Assembly (NCBI GenBank): GCA_015486845.1
Contig: WFQU01000173.1
Coordinates: 1 to 41,319 of the forward strand
Direction of reading: 5' to 3'
DNA: 41,319 nt
Origin: Anaerolineae bacterium
Lineage (GTDB): Bacteria; Chloroflexota; Anaerolineae; JAADDB01
The position numbers and the translations under genes are program-made. This document shows positions 411 through 39,425 of the stretch, piece after piece. The number at the start of each line of letters is the position of its first letter. The first letter of the stretch is position 1. The notes beneath the pieces were generated by a model. That model saw only the letters and a program-made list of their open reading frames with translations. It made no database searches and was not told the origin of the DNA.

Positions 411-908
411 AAATGAAACGACATCTATACTTGGCTTTCCTGAAAAAAGTTTTCTTACCGCAGAGCTCGCAGAGAACGCAGAGATAAAAACAGCTATTTC
501 GGAGGAGTCGGCATGGGTCTGCAGCGCACCACAGCGAATGAAAACGAAGCGGCTGGTGTCAAGCCTTTAGGTGGGGTGGTGGGGCTACCACCGGCTAAAG
601 CCTCGATTCCGGTACAGCGGCAGGGTACGTCAAGGTTGCGTCCGCTGCCAAAAGGCTGCTCAACACCAGCCCCCTTTCAGGGGGCTTCTTGACGACGTAG
701 CACGGGGATTTGACTCCCGTGCGCTCGGGCGGAGAACGCTGTCGATTAGAAGTTCAACTTCTCGCAGAAGTTGAACTTCTTAAAGGGGGCCTGATTTTTT
801 AGACGCTCTGCGCCTTTGCGCCGCTGCGTCAACTTATTTTCGGAGGAGAATATTTGTTATCTCTCTGCGTCCTCTGTGCTCTCGGCAGTGAACCTTTTTG
901 CAGTAGAG
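411..908 (+). repeat. repeat island 1 (mosaic structured modules, copy A)
   Basis: No gene. About 460-510 holds a GCAGAG-rich module ending in an SD-like GGAGGAG. Positions 511-788 hold the main structured element in plus orientation: a C-rich hairpin (668-686), a GCACGGG/CCCGTGC hairpin (700-722) and the 33-nt double palindrome (748-780). Positions 789-908 hold a module containing GCGCCTTTGCGCCGCTGCG and another GGAGGAGA. The segment from about 779 to 913 is repeated in inverted orientation at 41186-41319, reaching the stop codon of typA. Confidence 0.85.
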
Positions 909-6023: not shown

Positions 6024-6030
6024 CCAGTTA

Positions 6031-6465
6031 CCTCCTCTGAAAATAAAAATGGGACGCAGATCAACGCAGGCTGCGCACGCAGATAAAAAACCAGATCAAA
6101 AAAACTTGTTTCATTACGGCGTCACGACCACAGTCCCTTTTAGAAGTTCAACTTCTGCGAGAAGTTGAACTTCTAATCGACAGCATTCTCCGCCCGAGCG
6201 CACGGGGGGCAAATCCCCGTGCTACGTCGCCAAGAAGCCCCCTGAAAGGGGGCTGGTGTTGAGCAGCCTCTTGGCAGCGGACGCAATCTTGACGTACCCT
6301 GCCGCCGTACCGGAATCGAGGCTTTAGCCGGTGGTAGACCCACCAACCCACCTAAAGGCTTAACGCCAGCCGTAGATTTTCAGCCGCTGTGGTGCGCCTG
6401 TCTGCGTGCCCGCACAGGCAGGCCGCAGGCCCATGACAACTTCTCTGAAAATAAGACCTCTCCCC
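6031..6465 (-). repeat. repeat island 3 (copy B of the structured element, minus orientation)
   Basis: No gene. Positions 6031-6085 hold the SD-bearing module in minus orientation, directly abutting the subtilase start. The 33-nt double palindrome is at 6142-6174, the GCACGGGG/CCCCGTGC hairpin at 6200-6222 and the C-rich hairpin at 6236-6254. The remainder to about 6380 matches copies A and D. Positions 6395-6430 hold the GCCTG...CAGGC module (TGCGTGCCCGCACAGGCAGG), which also occurs near 9900, 18090 and 36610. Confidence 0.85.
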
Positions 6466-6554
6466 TGGCTTACCGCCCCTTTGGGCGGTAAGCCTTCCCC
6501 TCCCCGTGTCGGGGAGGGGAAAAAGCTAAGCGCAGCGCAGCTTGGGGGAGAGGT
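6466..6554 (+). repeat. cloverleaf-like structured repeat, copy 1
   Basis: The outer stem ACCTCTCCCC (6466-6475) pairs with GGGGAGAGGT (6545-6554). Inside are three hairpins: GGCTTACCGCCC/GGGCGGTAAGCC (perfect, 12 bp), CCCCTCCCCG/CGGGGAGGGG (perfect, 10 bp) and AAGCT/AGCTT with inner GC pairs. Other copies are at 36171-36273 and 39055-39152, with a truncated one near 10121-10195. Function unknown. Positions 6555-6638 show nothing else. Confidence 0.75.
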
Positions 6555-6638
6555 TTCCCCGTAGCATGACTTCTCAAGCCTGCGCTCCCCAATCTCGTCA
6601 AGAGATTTCCATACGCCGTTCTATGCAATAGATTCTCC

Positions 6639-7631: not shown

Positions 7632-9239
7632 TTAACGGAGTACCGGCCCCGCATTGCGCACTTCTTCCGAGACCGCATCAGTAAAAGGCTCGAAATTCTT
7701 GTAGAAAAGTGCTGCCAGGTGCTTGGCCATTTTGTCATATGCCATTTTATCTTCCCAGGTGTTGCGCGGCCACAATACTTGCGCCGGGACATTAGGACAG
7801 GTGGTAGGCACTTGTAGACCGAATACGGGGTCAGTTTTGGTAGCTACATTCTCCAGATACCCTTGCAACGCCGCTTCCACCATCGCTCTGGTGTACGCCA
7901 ATTTCATGCGCCGGCCTACGCCGTACGGCCCACCGCTCCAGCCTGTATTCACGAGCCACACATTGACATGATGTTTGCGGATTTTCTCTCCCAACAGCTC
8001 AGCATACACATTAGGATGGCGAGCCATAAATGGTGCGCCAAAGCAAGCACTGAAAGTCGCTTGTGGTTCGGTGATGCCTGTCTCTGTACCGGCCACTTTA
8101 GCTGTATAGCCAGAAAGAAAATAATACTTGGCCTGTGCCGGCGTCAATTTGGAAATGGGCGGCAGAACGCCGAAGGCATCCGCCGTAAGCATGATAATAT
8201 TCGCAGGTTGCCCTGTCGCCGCACCTGTTTCGATGGCGTTGTCGATGTATCCCAGTGGATAAGAAGCGCGCGTGTTTTCCGTTAAAGTATCGTCGTTTAA
8301 ATCAACCCGTCGCGTGGCAATATCTATGCCCACATTCTCCAAAATAGTGCCAAAGCGGCGCGTTGTGCTATAAATCTGCGGTTCCCCCTCCCGGGAAAGA
8401 CGTATAACTTTTGCATAGCAACCGCCTTCAAAATTGAAAACACCGTGGTCGCTCCAACCATGCTCGTCATCACCAATAAGCCGGCGCCTGGGATCAGCGG
8501 AAAGAGTCGTTTTACCAGTACCGGAAAGGCCAAAGAAAACAGCAATATCACCATCCGCGCCCACATTAGCCGAGGCATGCATGGGCATTACCCCTTTATC
8601 CGGCAATAGATAGTTCATAACGGTGAAAATAGCCTTCTTAATTTCGCCGGCGTAACTTGTGCCGCCGATGAGGATTGCTTTGCGACCAAAATCGACCAAA
8701 ATGAACGCATCGGAGTGCGTTCCATCCACCTCTGGAATCGCGCGGAAAGAGGGCACAGCAATCAACGTAAATTCGGGAACGTGTTTTTGCAACGCTTCCA
8801 AAGTAGGAATGATAAACATATTGCGAGCAAACAAACTTTGCCAGGCAGACTCAGTAATCACGCGGATGGGCAATTGGTAAGTGGGATCGGCACCAGCAAA
8901 ACAATCCTGGACGTAGATCTCTCGGCCTTGCAAATAGGCCGTGACTTTGTTGTACAATGCGTCGAACTTTTCCTGGCTCATCGGTCGGTTGACCTCGCCC
9001 CACCAAATTTTATCCTCGCTGCCGCTCTCACGGACGATGAACTTATCGTTCGGCGAGCGGCCCGTATGCACACCGGTACGAACGACTATGGGGCCTAAAT
9101 GGGCAATGATCCCCTCGCGCCGGCGCACAATGTGTTCGTAGAGCGCTGGATGGGTCAGGTTCCAGTGGACTTCTTCCATATTGTAAATCCCGTGATGTTC
9201 GATGCCGTACGTGCTATGTCTTGTAGCTGCTTCATGCAT
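7632..9239 (-). CDS. pckA: ATP-dependent phosphoenolpyruvate carboxykinase
   Basis: 535 aa from [12 protein letters not shown], matching the usual 530-540 aa of ATP-type PEPCK, which converts oxaloacetate and ATP to PEP, CO2 and ADP in gluconeogenesis. The start codon has GAGGAGA 7 nt upstream; a longer frame continues 45 codons upstream but only through repeat sequence. Seen: the substrate-binding segment [16 protein letters not shown] (52-67), [20 protein letters not shown] (183-202), the P-loop [11 protein letters not shown] (237-247) and the following GDDEHGW kinase-2 motif. The SD belongs to a repeat module (see 9247-9300). Together with gap, pgk and yvcK in the same window it suggests a functioning gluconeogenic route. 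Confidence 0.97.
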
Positions 9240-9246
9240 GGTTTTC

Positions 9247-10120
9247 TCTCCTCTTGAAAACAAAATGGGACGCAGATCAACGCAGGCCGCGCACGCAGTC
9301 TGCCTTGTCCGGCAATTAGAAATCGCTGCCACAACTACGAAACCTGCCTGCGCAGGTTGCATGCTAATCGCCATAGGGCGATTTTGCTGTTTTAGAAGTT
9401 CAACTTCTTGAAGAAGTTGAACTTCTAATCAAAGATAATTTCGCCTCCTTTTTCTTCTTCGAGGGCGCTGCCCTCGAGCTCCCGGTAGGGGAACCGTACG
9501 GTTCCCATCCAACCCTTCCGAAATACGTTCCCCCGGCTAAGACGGTAAAACGAATTAAATAGGTCATTGGTCGCTGCTTAGGCCAGCCGGTCGCGCCGGC
9601 AATACAAATAATTTCTGTTCTCGAGCCTGGTTCACACTAATACATAGCATCAAACTGGTCCAAACTCGAGCCGCCGACGATATGTCAGAACTGGTTGCCG
9701 CCAGGATGGCGGCGGATAGCAGCGTGGCAGTAAAAAGTGATAGCCCGCAACAAACCGGCCACGACGCAGCCAAGAACCTTTTTCAGAGGGTCTGGGGGGT
9801 GAATCGCCCCCCGGCCCCCAATTCTGGGGGTGTGTTGCGTCCCCCAAGGTTGGGGGATAGGGGGCGCATTTTCATTCGCTGTGGTACGCCTGTCTGCGTG
9901 CCCGCACAGGCAGGCCGAAGGCTCATGATAGCTACCAAGAAACACGCCTGTTTCTTCCTGAACGAATAATTTCGTACTCGAAAATTATGGCATAGCTCCT
10001 CTAAAAATGAAAATGGAACGCAGATCAACACAGGCTACGCACACAGATAAAAAATCAGATCAAAAAACTTGTTTCGTTATGGCGTCACGACCGCAGTAAT
10101 CTTTACCATCTCTGAAAATA
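9247..10120. repeat. repeat island 4a (mosaic, 9.2-10.1 kb)
   Basis: No gene. Positions 9247-9300 are the SD-bearing module (minus) abutting pckA. Positions 9309-9390 are a module with an inverted copy at 18231-18305. The 33-nt double palindrome (copy C) is at 9394-9426. Positions 9464-9545 and 9629-9731 are related to 3122-3210 and 3004-3118. Positions 9780-9930 are G-tract-rich (GGGGGGTGAATCGCCCCCC and others) and end in the TGCGTGCCCGCACAGGCAGG module, with an inverted relative at 18070-18200. Positions 9995-10060 hold another A-rich module (minus). Open frames in this stretch simply translate these repeats. Confidence 0.8.
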
Positions 10121-10195
10121 AGACTTCTCCCCTGGCTTAGCGCCCAAAGGGGCGGCAAGTCTTCCCCTCCCCGATACGGGGAGGGGAAGAGGTTC
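10121..10195 (+). repeat. truncated cloverleaf-like repeat, copy 2
   Basis: It contains the 5' outer strand (GACTTCTCCCC), a decayed GGCTTAGCGCC hairpin and the perfect CCCCTCCCCG/CGGGGAGGGG hairpin. It lacks the AAGCT hairpin and the 3' outer strand, ending instead in GGGGAAGAGGTTCC. Confidence 0.6.
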
Positions 10196-10210
10196 CATTT
10201 TTCAGAGCGC

Positions 10211-10603
10211 TCTATTTTCAAGAGAGTTATCATGGGCCTACGGCGCACCGCAGCGAATGAAAATCTACAGCTGGCGTCAAGCCTTTAGGTGGGTTGGTGG
10301 GTCTACGCCGGCTAAAGCCTCGATTCCGGTACGGCGGCAGGGTACGTCAAGGTTGCGTCCGCTGCCAAGAGGCTGCTCAACACCAGCCCCCTTTCAGGGG
10401 GCTTCTTGGCGACGTAGCACGGGGATTTGACCCCCGTGCGCTCGGGCGGAGAATGCTGTCGATTAGAAATTCAACTTCTGCGAGAAGTTGAATTTCTAAA
10501 AGGGACTGCGGTCGCAACACCGTAACGAAAAAATTTTTTTATCTGGTTTTTATCTGCGTGCGCAGCCTGCGTTTATCTGCGTCCCATTCTATTTTCAAGA
10601 GAG
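10211..10603 (+). repeat. repeat island 4b (copy D of the structured element)
   Basis: Plus orientation, close match to copies A and B. The C-rich hairpin is at 10385-10403 and GCACGGGG/CCCCGTGC at 10417-10439. The 33-nt double palindrome is at 10465-10497. Here both arms differ from the other copies by matching changes (G to A in one arm, C to T in the other), so pairing stays perfect. Positions 10535-10603 are the A-rich/SD module in plus orientation, ending TCTATTTTCAAGAGAGTA about 135 bp before rnc. Confidence 0.85.
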
Positions 10604-10643: not shown

Positions 10644-10739
10644 AGCCAAAGCTATCTACCTTGAGAAAAGGATCTTTGTTAGCAAAGGCATTTTTCTGGG
10701 GGCATATGGCAATCTTTCCGAAAGAGATAACAAGTCGTT

Positions 10740-11459
10740 ATGGAAGAACAGTTACACGAATTTGAAAAACAGTTAGGCTTTACGTTTAATAATTCCCTTT
10801 TATTGAAGCAGGCATTGACACATCGCTCTTATCTTAACGAACAGCCAGAGGCTTCCGTTGGCAACAACGAGCGATTGGAGTATTTTGGCGATGCCATCCT
10901 TGATTTTGTCGTCGCCGAGGTTCTGTTCCGTCGTTATACCAATTTGCATGAAGGCGAAATGACTAATATGCGTGCAGCCTTAGTGCGGGAAAGCACGTTG
11001 GCCGGCTTTGCAGCTTCCATTTCTTTGGGGGACTATTTGCTCATGGGCAGCGGTGAAGCAGCCACCGGCGGTCGGGAACGCCACACCACGCTCAGTGCTG
11101 CCTTCGAAGCCCTTATCGCCGCAATCTATTTAGATCAGGGGCTGCCAAAAACGCGTGATTTCATTTTGCATTTCGTCGAGCCGGAATTGCAACATGCCTA
11201 CGAAGTTGCCCTTTCCAAGGACATGAAAAGTCGGCTGCAAGAATGGGTACAAGGGCACTGGCACCATACGCCCGCCTATTACACTATTAGCACCAACGGC
11301 CCGGATCACGCGAAAACATTCACGGTGGAAGCTGTCATAAACGGCAAAGTCTACGGCGTGGGCGAAGGTCGCAACAAGCAAGTTGCGTCACAAGCCGCGG
11401 CCCAGGCAGCTATGAACAACATTCTGGCTCACGAAGCGCCGGACCGTGACATATCGTAA
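10740..11459 (+). CDS. rnc: ribonuclease III
   Basis: 239 aa, a normal length for bacterial RNase III, which cleaves double-stranded RNA in rRNA maturation and mRNA decay. The nuclease domain (about 5-135) has the signature NERLEYFGD with Glu44 and Asp51, and the second metal segment TLSAAFEALIAAIYLD with Glu123. A double-stranded-RNA-binding domain follows (160-232: MKSRLQEWVQ, then NKQVASQAAAQAAMNNIL). The position equivalent to E. coli Asp114 is Ala120 instead of Asp, by hand alignment of LADTVEA with LSAAFEA. The SD before the ATG is weak (AAAGAGAT, rather distant). The 3' end overlaps the start of a broken gene in another frame. Confidence 0.95.
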   Translation: MEEQLHEFEKQLGFTFNNSLLLKQALTHRSYLNEQPEASVGNNERLEYFGDAILDFVVAEVLFRRYTNLHEGEMTNMRAALVRESTLAGFAASISLGDYLLMGSGEAATGGRERHTTLSAAFEALIAAIYLDQGLPKTRDFILHFVEPELQHAYEVALSKDMKSRLQEWVQGHWHHTPAYYTISTNGPDHAKTFTVEAVINGKVYGVGEGRNKQVASQAAAQAAMNNILAHEAPDRDIS

Positions 11460-18026: not shown

Positions 18027-18690
18027 TTCTGTACAATTCGGTATAGAGGCTATTATGCAAAAGCTTCGGCATGGGCCTGCGGCCTGCCTGTGCGGACACG
18101 CAGACAGGCGCACCACAGCGGCTGAAAACGCCCCCTATTCCCCAACCTTGGAGAGAGCACAACACCCCCAGAATTGGGGGCCGAGGGGCGATTATTCGGC
18201 GCCCAGCGACTAAAAGTCACGGCAACGTCTGCAAAATCGCCCTACGGCGATTAGCTTGCAACCTGCGCAGGCAGGTTTCGCAGTTGTAGCAGCGATTTCT
18301 GATCGCCGGCTCAACACTAGCCCCCTTTCAGGGAGCTTCTTAGCGACGTAGCACGGGGATTTGCCCCCCGTGCGCTTGGGCGGAAGACCCCGTCGAATAG
18401 AAGTTCAACTTCTCGCAGAAGTTGAACTTCTTAAATAGGGCCTAATTTTTTATCTGCGTGCGCAGCCTGCGTTGATCAGCGTTCTATTTTTCGGAGGAGA
18501 GGGTAGCCGAAGGCAATGCCTTCAGCTACCCTTCAGAGAAGTTTATTTTCAAGGTAGTTATCATGAGCCTACGGCACACCACAGCGGCTAAAAATTTACG
18601 ACTGGCGTCGAGCCTTTAGGCGGCTTGGCAGCGTCAACACCGGCTAAAGCCTCCACTCCAGTACCGTGGCGCTCTATTTTCAATGGAGAG
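18027..18690 (+). repeat. repeat island 7 (copy E and accessory modules)
   Basis: No gene. Positions 18070-18200 are an inverted relative of 9780-9930, including the CAGGC/GCCTG module. Positions 18231-18305 are an inverted copy of 9309-9390. Copy E: C-rich hairpin 18319-18337 (one unpaired position), GCACGGGG hairpin 18351-18373 and 33-nt double palindrome 18399-18431. Positions 18440-18500 are the A-rich/SD module (plus), ending TTTTTCGGAGGAGAGG. Positions 18540-18665 repeat the left part of the structured element. Positions 18671-18690 (CTCTATTTTCAATGGAGAG) end in the SD used by the trehalase gene. Confidence 0.8.
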
Positions 18691-23877: not shown

Positions 23878-23910
23878 AGAAATTCAACGCCTGCGAGAAG
23901 TTGGACTTCT
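23878..23910 (+). repeat. decayed solo copy of the 33-nt double palindrome
   Basis: It has the same length and spacing as the seven intact copies and an identical GCG loop, but its two arms no longer match fully (AGAAATTCAACGCCT against AGAAGTTGGACTTCT). It is alone, without the other hairpins, and lies in the 5' leader of the yqeY operon. The rest of 23695-23943 is unremarkable. Confidence 0.7.
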
Positions 23911-36039: not shown

Positions 36040-36640
36040 CCTGAAACGCGGAAAAAGCCTAATTTTCCCCCTCCTCTGAAAATAGAACGCAGATTAACGC
36101 TGATGCACGCTGATCTTAATTTTCATCCGCTGTGGTGTGCCGTAGGCTCATGATAACTCCTTTGAAAATAAAACCTCTCCCCTGGCTTACCGCCCAAAGG
36201 GGCGGCAAGCCTTCCCCTCCCCGATACGGGGAGGGGAAAAAGCTAAGCGCAGCGCAGCTTGGGGGAGAGGTTTCCCCTCAAAATAAGTTGACGCAACGGC
36301 GCCAAGGCGCAGAGCGTCTAAAAAATCAGGCCTCCTTTAAGAAGTTCAACTTCTTCGAGAAGTTGAACTTCTAATCAACGGCGTTCTCTGCCCGAGCGCA
36401 CGGGGGTCAAATCCCCGTGCTACGTGGCCAAAAGCCCCCTGAAAGGGGGCTGCTGTAGGGCAACCTCTTAGCAGCGGACGCTACCTTGACGTACCTCGCC
36501 GCCGCGTCGGAGTAGAGGCTTTAGCCGGGGGTAACGCGACAAAACCGCCTAAAGGCTCGAGTCCAGCCGCATCATTTTCAGCCACTGTGGTGCGCCTGTC
36601 TGCGTGCCCACACAGGCAGGCCGAAGGCTCATGATGACGC
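36040..36640 (-). repeat. repeat island 8 (copy G and modules)
   Basis: No gene between the Dsb gene and the lipoprotein gene. Positions 36069-36115 are the A-rich/SD module in minus orientation, but about 118 nt from the Dsb start, so not its SD. The cloverleaf copy is listed separately. Copy G: 33-nt double palindrome 36340-36372, GCACGGGG hairpin 36398-36420, C-rich hairpin 36433-36451, then the rest of the element to about 36570 and the TGCGTGCCCACACAGGCAGG module at 36590-36633. Positions 36641-36790 show nothing recognisable. Confidence 0.85.
36171..36273 (+). repeat. cloverleaf-like structured repeat, copy 3
   Basis: The outer stem AAACCTCTCCCC (36171-36182) pairs with GGGGAGAGGTTT (36262-36273), 12 bp. 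Inside are GGCTT-A-CCGCC/GGCGG-C-AAGCC (one mismatch), CCCCTCCCCG/CGGGGAGGGG and AAGCT/AGCTT hairpins. It is the best-preserved outer stem of the four copies. Confidence 0.75.
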
Positions 36641-36798
36641 CCATTCTGGGTGGGAGCAAACCATTTAAAGTCGCAGAAAGGCAGCCTCGCCAGTACAGGT
36701 ACGGGCTCTAACCGCCTGATTCTCGAACAGTTTTTACAGGCCAAATTCGGAATTGCTGCACGAGCACAACGCTACTTTCAAAGACAAGGGAAAGCACG

Positions 36799-37652: not shown

Positions 37653-38851
37653 CCGATCCAGGCCCCACAGATGATCGGTTTTCTTCGGGACCGCTATCGC
37701 TTTACATCCATATCCCATTTTGCGTGCGCCGTTGTCCATACTGTGATTTCAACAGTTACGCCGGCATCGATGATAAGCATCGTGACATTTATGTGCACGC
37801 TTTACGACAAGAAATCCGGCAATGGGGCGCAAGGTTGCACCGTCCGGCGGTGCGCACTATTTTTATCGGCGGTGGCACGCCGACTACCCTCAACGGGATA
37901 CAATTCGGGGCTATTATGGCCACCTGCCGGGAGAGTTTCCGGGTGGACATTGATGCCGAGATCAGCAGCGAGGCAAACCCCGGCGCTGTTGATTCCGCCT
38001 GTTTCGAGGCAATGTTAGCTGCCGGCATTAACCGACTAAGTTTAGGCGTGCAAAGTTTTGACGACAAAGCGTTGACCTTCTTAGGGCGCATCCACGACAG
38101 CGCCGAGGCAAGAGCTGCTTATCGTGCGGCCCGCCAGGTCGGCTTTCAGAATATCAATCTGGATTTCATGTTCGGCTTACCCGGCCAAAGCGTGGCGAAT
38201 TGGCGCCGCACCTTGGCGGAAGCTATTGAGCTGGAACCAGAGCACCTTTCTCTTTACAGCTTGACCGTCGAGCCGGGCACGCCATTAGCGCGCTGGGTCA
38301 CGGCCGGTAAAGTACCAGCACCCGACGACGACCAGGCTGCCGCCGATTACGAATTGGCCATGGAAATGTTAGCCCCGGCCGGATTCACCCATTACGAAAT
38401 CAGCAACTGGGCCCAAGCAAATGGTGAGGATAGCTGGCAGCCCCACTACGCTTGCCGTCACAACATAGTTTACTGGCGCCGCCAACCATACCTCGGCTTT
38501 GGCGCCGGCGCCCATAGCTTCTTGTCGGAACGCCGCTGGTGGAACGTGCGCCGACCTGAGACATACATCCGGCGCTTAGCCGATGGACGGACGCCTACCG
38601 CCGGCAGCGAGCATATCGACCGGCGCACCGCCAGAGGAGAAACCATGATGTTAGGCTTGCGTCTGCTCACCGAGGGCGTGAGCGACGGCGACTTTCAACA
38701 AGCTTTTGGCGTTCCTATCGCGTCAGCTTTCCCCACCGAGCTGGAAGAATTAACCAGCGCCGGCTTGTTAGACTACTGCCACGGTCGCTGCCGGCTAACG
38801 CCACGGGGATATTTGTTAGCCAATCAAGTCTTCCGGCGCTTCCTCCCCTGA
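37649..38851 (+). CDS. hemW: HemW radical SAM protein (coproporphyrinogen III oxidase-like, heme chaperone)
   Basis: 400 aa; the start overlaps the preceding stop (ATGA). The radical-SAM cluster CxxxCxxC is FCVRRCPYCDF with Cys25, Cys29 and Cys32. GGGTPTTL, the SEANPG strand, NRLSLGVQSFDDKALTFLGRIH and the NLDFMFGLPGQ segment are typical of HemW, as is ending with a HemN C-terminal domain. HemW binds heme and is thought to deliver it to membrane enzymes. Unlike HemN it has no fourth adjacent cysteine (Phe follows Cys32-Asp), so coproporphyrinogen oxidase activity is unlikely. The last codons and TGA stop (TTCCTCCCCTGA) coincide with the end of a repeat module, suggesting the native 3' end was replaced. 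Confidence 0.94.
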   Translation: MTDPGPTDDRFSSGPLSLYIHIPFCVRRCPYCDFNSYAGIDDKHRDIYVHALRQEIRQWGARLHRPAVRTIFIGGGTPTTLNGIQFGAIMATCRESFRVDIDAEISSEANPGAVDSACFEAMLAAGINRLSLGVQSFDDKALTFLGRIHDSAEARAAYRAARQVGFQNINLDFMFGLPGQSVANWRRTLAEAIELEPEHLSLYSLTVEPGTPLARWVTAGKVPAPDDDQAAADYELAMEMLAPAGFTHYEISNWAQANGEDSWQPHYACRHNIVYWRRQPYLGFGAGAHSFLSERRWWNVRRPETYIRRLADGRTPTAGSEHIDRRTARGETMMLGLRLLTEGVSDGDFQQAFGVPIASAFPTELEELTSAGLLDYCHGRCRLTPRGYLLANQVFRRFLP

Positions 38852-39425
38852 AAATAAAAATGGGACGCAGATCAACGCAGGCTGCGCACGCAGATAAAAA
38901 AACAATAGTCAAAAAATGGACTCCGTTATGTCATGGCTGATTGGAGCAAAACTATCCCCAACGCCGACAACGTTCCAGGCAACAACAACATGCGTGGTCA
39001 ATTTTCATCCGCTGTGGTGTGCCATAGGCTCATGATAACTCCCTTGAAAATAAGACCTCTCCCCTGGCTTACCGCCCAAAGGGGCGGCAAGCCTTCCCCT
39101 CCCCGATACGGGGAGGGGAAAAGCTAAGCGCAGCGCAGCTTAGAGGAGGGATCTCCCCTCAAAATCAGTTCACGCAACGGCGGCAAGGCGCAGAGCGTCT
39201 AAAAAATCAGGCTTCCTTTAAGAAGTTCAACTTCTTGAAGAAGTTGAACTTCTAATCGGCAGCGTTCTCTGCCCGAGCGCACGGGGGGCAAATCCCCGTG
39301 CTACGTCGCCAAGAAGCCCCCTAAAAGGGGGCTAATGTTGTGAGATTCATTGCAGATTATTATTCTCTGCGTCTCTGCGAGTTGCCCCCATGAAAATAGA
39401 ACGCTAATCAACGCTGATGGCGAGG
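38840..39425 (-). repeat. repeat island 9 (copy H and modules)
   Basis: No gene. Positions 38840-38905 are the A-rich/SD module in minus orientation, overlapping the hemW stop codon. Positions 38930-39000 are unique. Positions 39001-39035 match 36120-36155. The cloverleaf copy is listed separately. Copy H: 33-nt double palindrome 39221-39253, GCACGGGG hairpin 39279-39301, C-rich hairpin 39315-39333. Positions 39370-39425 are another module with GAAAATAGAACGCTAATCAA. Confidence 0.85.
39055..39152 (+). repeat. cloverleaf-like structured repeat, copy 4 (3' strand decayed)
   Basis: It has the same three internal hairpins as the copy at 36171. The 5' outer strand ACCTCTCCCC (39055-39064) is intact, but the 3' strand reads TTAGAGGAGGGAT and pairs poorly. 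This suggests either decay of this copy or that the outer stem is not essential. Confidence 0.65.

Follow-up and report, generated by a model that had tools for sequence, protein, structure and literature searches.

A 33-nt nested palindrome dispersed in an Anaerolineae genome, a probable miniature mobile hairpin dependent on a RAYT-like transposase

Introduction

The described systems closest to the repeat analyzed here pair a RAYT-like gene with short inverted repeats. In TIRYTs/TIRtrons, as presented in the available text of PMC3733652, a RAYT-like gene is closely flanked by inverted repeats that lack a GTAG tag and in some cases are self-complementary or amplified in the genome; a figure legend of the same paper calls some of these terminal inverted repeats (TIRs) "double palindromic", and its text mentions GTAG repeats in Chloroflexi. 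According to the accessible portion of PMC6006769, 20 of 26 TIRYTs belong to subclass 2.1, which has a C-terminal HTH, the REP families described so far come mostly from Proteobacteria and bear a GTAG-type tag, and RAYT/TnpA-REP proteins share a Y---NP signature. The part of PMC8266576 available to us gives CT and CA as the cut dinucleotides of the studied TnpA-REP enzymes and presents the mobilization of REPs in trans as still only proposed.

The window analyzed here, a stretch of 41,319 nt from the genome of an Anaerolineae bacterium (G000; 3.28 Mb, 182 contigs), contains a 33-nt repeat whose sequence-only reading had described it as a palindrome of palindromes. Among open-licence papers, no title or abstract concerned this repeat, and the exact 15-mer had 0 matches.

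Results

The repeat unit in the window

Eight copies of the unit are present in the window, seven with perfect 15-bp stems and one degenerate. The copy singled out by the sequence-only reading (copy D, no. 4 of the eight in window order) has a 3-nt loop and a perfect 15-bp stem that lengthens to 17 bp at 10463-10499, and it lies between the divergent genes for phosphoenolpyruvate carboxykinase (7632-9374, minus strand) and ribonuclease III (10740-11459, plus strand).

10465..10497, unstranded: copy D, 33-nt hairpin, AGAAATTCAACTTCT-GCG-AGAAGTTGAATTTCT
10465..10479, plus strand: copy D left arm, 15 nt, imperfect 7-1-7 palindrome
10480..10482, plus strand: copy D loop, 3 nt, GCG
10483..10497, plus strand: copy D right arm, 15 nt, exact reverse complement of the left arm
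748..780, unstranded: unit copy, perfect, loop CGC
6142..6174, unstranded: unit copy, perfect, loop GCG
9394..9426, unstranded: unit copy, perfect, loop TGA
18399..18431, unstranded: unit copy, perfect, loop CGC
23878..23910, unstranded: unit copy, degenerate, 11/15 stem pairs
36340..36372, unstranded: unit copy, perfect, loop TCG
39221..39253, unstranded: unit copy, perfect, loop TGA

The usual copy, which ends in CT, is AGAAGTTCAACTTCT-NNN-AGAAGTTGAACTTCT, and each of its halves is a 7-1-7 palindrome, so that the earlier description of its symmetry was exact. Copy D differs from it by one compensated base pair and, as had been noted, keeps the large stem perfect (15/15 pairs). The loop varies as described (CGC, TGA, TCG), GCG being a further triplet. 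As DNA, the long hairpin is strongly favored over a single half: the single-stranded folding energy of three window copies is -14 to -14.8 kcal/mol, equalled by 0 of 200 shuffles of each, vs. -2.9 kcal/mol for one half alone. A search with Rfam at the gathering threshold yielded 0 families in the window.

Other repeats are also present. Near the contig edge, between 161 and 345, lie two or three direct repeats around GTCGCTCCCCCCCGTGGGGAGCGTGGATTGAAAC, spaced 67-74 nt, which resemble the end of a CRISPR array. A mosaic of other dispersed modules in both orientations occupies 6029-6560, 9802-10600, 36139-36660 and 38840-39420 as well as other places; it includes the GC-rich hairpins TTCCCCTCCCCGATACGGGGAGGGGAA and GGCTTACCGCCC..GGGCGGTAAGCC, and some of its modules contain the 33-mer.

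Copy number, boundaries and distribution

The abundance of the 33-mer is far above chance, since the window's genome contains 255 copies with up to three mismatches and no match to a reversed control pattern. The 19 perfect copies listed for the MAG Dive96_bin1.73 (Dive96) have 19 different flanks (compared by eye), so that the unit is the 33-mer itself. In the window's genome, GATT...AAAGG flanks recur in many copies because these sit within larger repeats, and other copies lack them; duplication of these larger repeats may account for part of the copy number. Among the matches listed, at least 66 named stretches carry the 33-mer, all of them titled Chloroflexi, Chloroflexota, Anaerolineae, Anaerolineales or Anaerolinea, and the pattern (up to two mismatches) is present in 30 of the 396 genomes of the window's class, own genome included, with 103 copies in G149 and 28 in G003.

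A three-unit array at L126:14332 and single 15-mer halves between the same flanks at L147:12801 and L118:7848 suggest that slippage adds and removes 18-nt units. A search for empty sites via joined flanks gave no clean case among the matches listed; one possible site (L110, about 10730-10799) could be a deletion, and neither excision nor insertion events were seen in the genomes compared. Lone halves are rare, with five exact ones outside full copies in 0.9 Mb, two of them cut by contig ends and one in a tandem array. The idea of an uptake sequence was dropped, single AGAAGTT words and single halves not being clearly enriched.

Conservation of the long stem and the small palindromes

A sample of 901,174 nt of the window's genome (60 stretches plus the window) contained 90 copies with up to four mismatches, 7 of 97 hairpin-like matches with more than four being excluded from the copy counts. 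Substitutions in their arms amount to 0.0144 per site, and the loop is unconstrained, with 17 triplets. No arm difference is seen in 67 of the 90 copies (a share biased upward because 20 of the 60 stretches were picked for holding perfect copies), and most copies thus lack the unpaired arm differences that the sequence-only reading had named as the sign that copy D is a chance case. Among the 23 deviating copies, six retain the complete 15-bp stem. The other 17 have one or more unpaired positions; 12 of them carry a single substitution and are unpairable by definition.

The proposed count of substitutions preserving the long stem vs. the small palindromes, run on these 90 copies, favored the former. 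Of 39 substituted arm positions in the 23 deviating copies, 14 are still paired within the long stem, against 0 within the small palindromes (two positions being centers without a small-palindrome partner), which bears out the suggestion that the large stem is the conserved part. Six of seven two-substitution copies, copy D included, keep 15/15 pairs, for which the chance expectation is 1.15% each; two of the six share a variant, leaving at least five distinct cases, and 5/6 corresponds to a P of about 1e-9. All six fully compensated copies break small-palindrome pairs, 12 of 14 remaining. In other genomes, many of the listed two-mismatch copies keep the stem as well, e.g., AGACGTTC...GAACGTCT, AGAAGTTCGACTTCT...AGAAGTCGAACTTCT and AGAAGTTCAACTTTT...AAAAGTTGAACTTCT. 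Compensated arms could also come from template switching without selection.

Genomic placement and edge sequence

Placement of the copies relied on crude ORF-based gene calls (at least 90 aa), by which 36 of the 90 copies, lying outside the first or last gene, were unplaceable. Among the 54 placeable copies, 45 are intergenic, with intergenic DNA making up 16% of the length. These 45 comprise 22 co-directional, 7 convergent and 16 divergent cases, the corresponding length shares being 59, 11 and 30 percent, and the distance to a gene 3' end is below 100 nt in 11/36.

Within 6 nt on either side, GTAG was found in 0/90 own copies and in 0/69 hairpins beside transposase genes, and GTGG in 1/90 and 2/69, respectively. 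The dinucleotide CA precedes 11 of 19 Dive96 copies on one strand (2.5 expected; the motif was chosen after looking). In other genomes the flanking dinucleotide is CA in 3/21 and TT in 9/21.

The RAYT-like transposases

Two Y1_Tnp (PF01797) genes are present in the window's genome, one on contig C99 and a decayed copy on C73. Directly 3' of both genes lies a hairpin, AGACGTTCAACTTCT-NNN-AGAAGTTGAACGTCT, which is a minority variant in this genome; the decayed copy also has a standard 33-mer on its 5' side, and the C99 gene ends at the contig edge with its 5' side unseen. The two gene copies agree in 20/20 bases immediately within the outer hairpin edge and in 6/20 immediately beyond it. Such an edge would be seen if the hairpin forms the terminus of a moved unit, and could also result from recombination between hairpins. 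At L091 and L092, the own RAYT-like gene is present once truncated by a contig end and once in decayed form, interrupted by an internal stop. Next to the decayed gene, a stretch of roughly 90 nt seems, by eye, to be duplicated on both sides.

The own protein matches Y1_Tnp above the cut-off, its HUH motif reads LNHYH, and it scores 70.5 bits against NF047646 of NCBIfam (REP-associated tyrosine transposase), below the curated cut-off of 80. The seven scanned proteins of its clade match the same model with 67-85 bits, and two of them (84.6 and 82.8) pass the cut-off; we therefore refer to these proteins as RAYT-like. The only PDB match of the clade profile is 4er8 (TnpA-REP; E 2e-7), and the IS200 model is matched by one of the seven proteins at 19.7 bits (cut-off 55). 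The HUH (NHYH) and YIHxNP columns are present in the clade alignment (A1), in which L251 has H for Y and L203 is truncated before the YIHxNP column. In a Pfam search at 1e-5, the L091 and L197 proteins yielded only Y1_Tnp, with no C-terminal HTH or DnaA-like domain. A tblastn search of L025-L090 found no such transposase encoded. The subclade has the motif YHxYNRG, and its members are often accompanied by 15-3-15 hairpins.

Hairpins beside RAYT-like genes

A profile built from the ten clade proteins of A1 and searched in the 396 genomes of the class had 111 matches at 1e-20; 79 loci from the best 80 of these (at least 181 bits) were examined, one partial match being left out. A 15-3-15 hairpin with at least 13 pairs occurs within 150 nt at 41 of the 79 loci and in 35/66 genomes, vs. 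two hairpins in equal windows 450-620 nt away. Such hairpins are found at 7/9 loci that are rows of the profile and at 34/70 of the others (one of which, L092, is a sister copy of a profile row). The remaining 38 loci have no 15-3-15 hairpin within this distance, and some have hairpins with 4-5-nt loops instead. Hairpins on both sides are seen at 21 of 75 eligible loci, 18 of them belonging to one family. A looser scan counted 85 hairpins in 30,877 nt near the genes vs. 23 in 157,707 nt far from them.

A strand-aware comparison over 190-370-nt windows gave 42/79 for the clade, 0/20 for IS200-type genes (those in repeat-bearing genomes, 18 IS200-type loci of repeat-free genomes being excluded) and 3/63 for other Y1 genes, the excess in the clade corresponding to a P of 4e-6 and 1e-10, respectively. 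The adjacency is confined to the RAYT-like subclade. Mere presence of a Y1 gene was rejected as a marker of the repeat, any such gene being found in 26/30 repeat-bearing and 27/30 repeat-free genomes. At one IS200-type locus of a repeat-free genome (L215), a 17-4-17 hairpin lies near the gene.

Spacing is similar across several loci, the 3' hairpin lying 212-224 nt from the Pfam domain at L091, L092, L197, L240, L241 and L243 (304 nt at L251 and 197 nt at L257) and the 5' hairpin 34-55 nt from it at L092, L197, L241, L243 and L251. Both pattern matches of G210 (2/2, up to two mismatches) bracket its transposase gene, and three of six in G382 lie within 660 nt of one.

Nine further loci were found with the G210 protein (better than 1e-20). 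In five of these, namely L368, L370, L371, L372 and L373, a 15-3-15 hairpin with 13 or more pairs lies no more than 150 nt from the match ends; L373 is from an assembly already in the sample (G133 = G400, judged by identical coordinates). Eleven loci from other classes of the phylum were examined as well, and five of them have a hairpin of 13-17 bp no farther than 250 nt from the gene, with a 3-nt loop in G406, G717 and one of two G414 loci, 15-4-15 at the second G414 locus and 13-4-13 in G561.

Hairpins of the AGAAGTT type stand beside the gene in only four genomes (own, G210, G382 and G203). The G210 protein had no match at 1e-8 in 13 of 21 other repeat-bearing genomes, including G149 and G003; the Dive96 transposase bears a different hairpin, of the AGAAACC type; and G004, with nine copies of an AGACTTC hairpin family, has no match to the RAYT-like profile at 1e-20. 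Most of the repeat-bearing genomes without a transposase match are fragmented assemblies, from which genes flanked by repeats are easily lost; orphan or borrowed hairpin elements are possible.

Nested symmetry and co-variation across lineages

The 65 distinct 33-mers beside clade genes, chosen by the long stem alone, have on average 10.71 of 14 small-palindrome pairs vs. 3.83 for shuffled arms; 61 of them start with A and 59 end with T. Thus, the small palindromes, which the sequence-only reading took to be altered while the large stem stays, are indeed easily lost within one genome, and yet they are not incidental across transposase lineages. The hairpin sequence itself varies by lineage (AGAAACC, AAGTGAC, AGACTTC, AACCTCC and more), and hairpin distance correlates with transposase distance over 44 loci (Mantel r 0.475, 0/2000 permutations), and the correlation holds when restricted to pairs from different host families (r 0.476, 884 of 946 pairs, 0/2000). 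Dispersal is also seen for three further hairpin families of this shape, with up to 15, 31 and 13 copies per genome (30 genomes, up to three mismatches). Many related transposases in this bacterial group have flanking hairpins of their own, which share the nested shape and differ in sequence, and the RAYT-like clade is common in this Chloroflexota class and present elsewhere in the phylum. G371 combines two or more hairpin families, with 15 and 30 copies, and several RAYT-like profile matches.

Discussion

The copy number, the 33-nt boundaries, the conservation of the long stem, the placement of hairpins beside RAYT-like genes and the co-variation of hairpin and transposase are observed features of this repeat. 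Taken together, they make it quite likely, in our judgment, that the 33-mer is a miniature non-autonomous mobile hairpin of the REPIN/TIR type lacking GTAG and served by a RAYT-like Y1 transposase, with mobility being the part that we infer. On single-stranded DNA, the 33-mer would fold as a 15-3-15 hairpin; the RAYT-like Y1 transposase, an HUH enzyme with a single tyrosine whose gene lies elsewhere in the genome (on C99, with the decayed copy on C73), would recognize the folded hairpin and cut at its edges, and would then copy or move it, mostly into intergenic DNA. The 33-mer has probably spread via this transposase. Of the site types offered by the sequence-only reading, a transposase site fits best, such hairpins flanking RAYT-like genes, and a dimeric-protein site and an RNA hairpin are less favored.

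A non-mobile binding site consisting of two dimer sites side by side, kept by selection for binding of a regulator or nucleoid protein, would account for halves that are each a perfect dimer-type palindrome, for arms that hardly change while the loop is free and for the mostly intergenic location. It is nevertheless an improbable explanation, given the scarcity of lone half-sites, the hairpin distance that tracks transposase distance and the six compensated copies with broken small-palindrome pairs, changes that ought to disable a double-stranded dimer site. Equally within this range of low probability, the 33-mer could be a passive passenger in larger dispersed repeats, with the stem kept by quasipalindrome (template-switch) correction: many own-genome copies do share their context within larger repeats, and the near-total compensation in two-substitution copies is what template switching would give, but the different flanks of all 19 listed Dive96 copies argue against a passenger, and the adjacency to RAYT-like genes, the co-variation and the small palindromes across lineages would be left unexplained.

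The stem is also strong enough for a transcription terminator or an RNA stability hairpin, one common flank has a T run about 12-15 nt after the stem, and classical REPs can act on mRNA according to the accessible text of PMC6006769. This reading is very unlikely, since the orientation classes lie near their length shares and, with 11/36 3'-end distances below 100 nt, the crude gene calls give no gene-end bias, no T run directly follows the stem in the flanks examined, and no Rfam family matches in the window. An intrinsic terminator was rejected on the gene context and the lack of a directly following T run.

A miniature mobile hairpin of this kind, minimal at 33 nt and without a tag, whose nested geometry stays fixed while its sequence is specific to each lineage, offers many matched transposase/hairpin pairs, through which one can ask how the DNA is recognized and whether the repeats are really mobilized in trans; G371 is a possible host for specificity testing. 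The 33-mer may also help explain the frequent breaks of these metagenome-assembled genomes near repeats. More tentatively, and with somewhat less than even confidence, we propose that the RAYT-like clade reads its hairpins by nested symmetry rather than by a GTAG tag, each lineage having its own 33-nt sequence within a shared 15-3-15/7-1-7 geometry. If so, Chloroflexota would hold dozens of natural transposase/hairpin pairs, probably of different specificity, and the nested palindrome would be a physical requirement, e.g., to let one long hairpin interconvert with two short ones or to accommodate two transposase molecules per hairpin.

Among known systems, the IS200/IS605 ends share with this one a Y1 transposase and hairpin ends, although the 20 IS200-type genes of repeat-bearing genomes, unlike the RAYT-like clade, have no 15-3-15 hairpin nearby. 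GTAG REPs and TnpA-REP (E. coli; 4er8), as described in the available part of PMC8266576, are similar in the hairpin substrate, in the HUH and Y---NP motifs and in the profile match to 4er8, and the CA that often precedes Dive96 copies is a TnpA-REP cut dinucleotide; the differences are the absence of GTAG and a perfect stem without the E. coli bulge. The resemblance to REPIN/RAYT, as far as the text of PMC3116915 presents it, extends to an inverted palindromic pair forming one hairpin, intergenic dispersal, compensatory changes and a nearby RAYT. The 33-mer is, like REPINs, a dispersed extragenic inverted palindrome doublet folding into one hairpin, and a linked RAYT-type gene with the same element is seen in the own genome, G210, G382 and G203, and not in G149, G003 or Dive96. 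REPINs, in the same source, have two conserved 16-bp ends and a longer spacer, whereas the unit here has 33 nt, a 3-nt spacer and no GTAG.

TIRYTs/TIRtrons, compared here through the text of their description rather than the Figure 9 sequences, likewise combine a RAYT-like gene with nearby inverted repeats and no GTAG. The L091 and L197 proteins lack the C-terminal HTH of TIRYT subclass 2.1 by Pfam, and the hairpins here are mostly 15-3-15 with 7-1-7 halves and a sequence varying by lineage. As for inverted repeats on both sides of the gene, the TIRYT arrangement, hairpins were seen on both sides at the 21 of 75 eligible loci noted above, chiefly those of one family, the own C99 gene being cut on its 5' side. 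The concept of the nested hairpin has its precedent in the "double palindromic" TIRs of that legend in PMC3733652.
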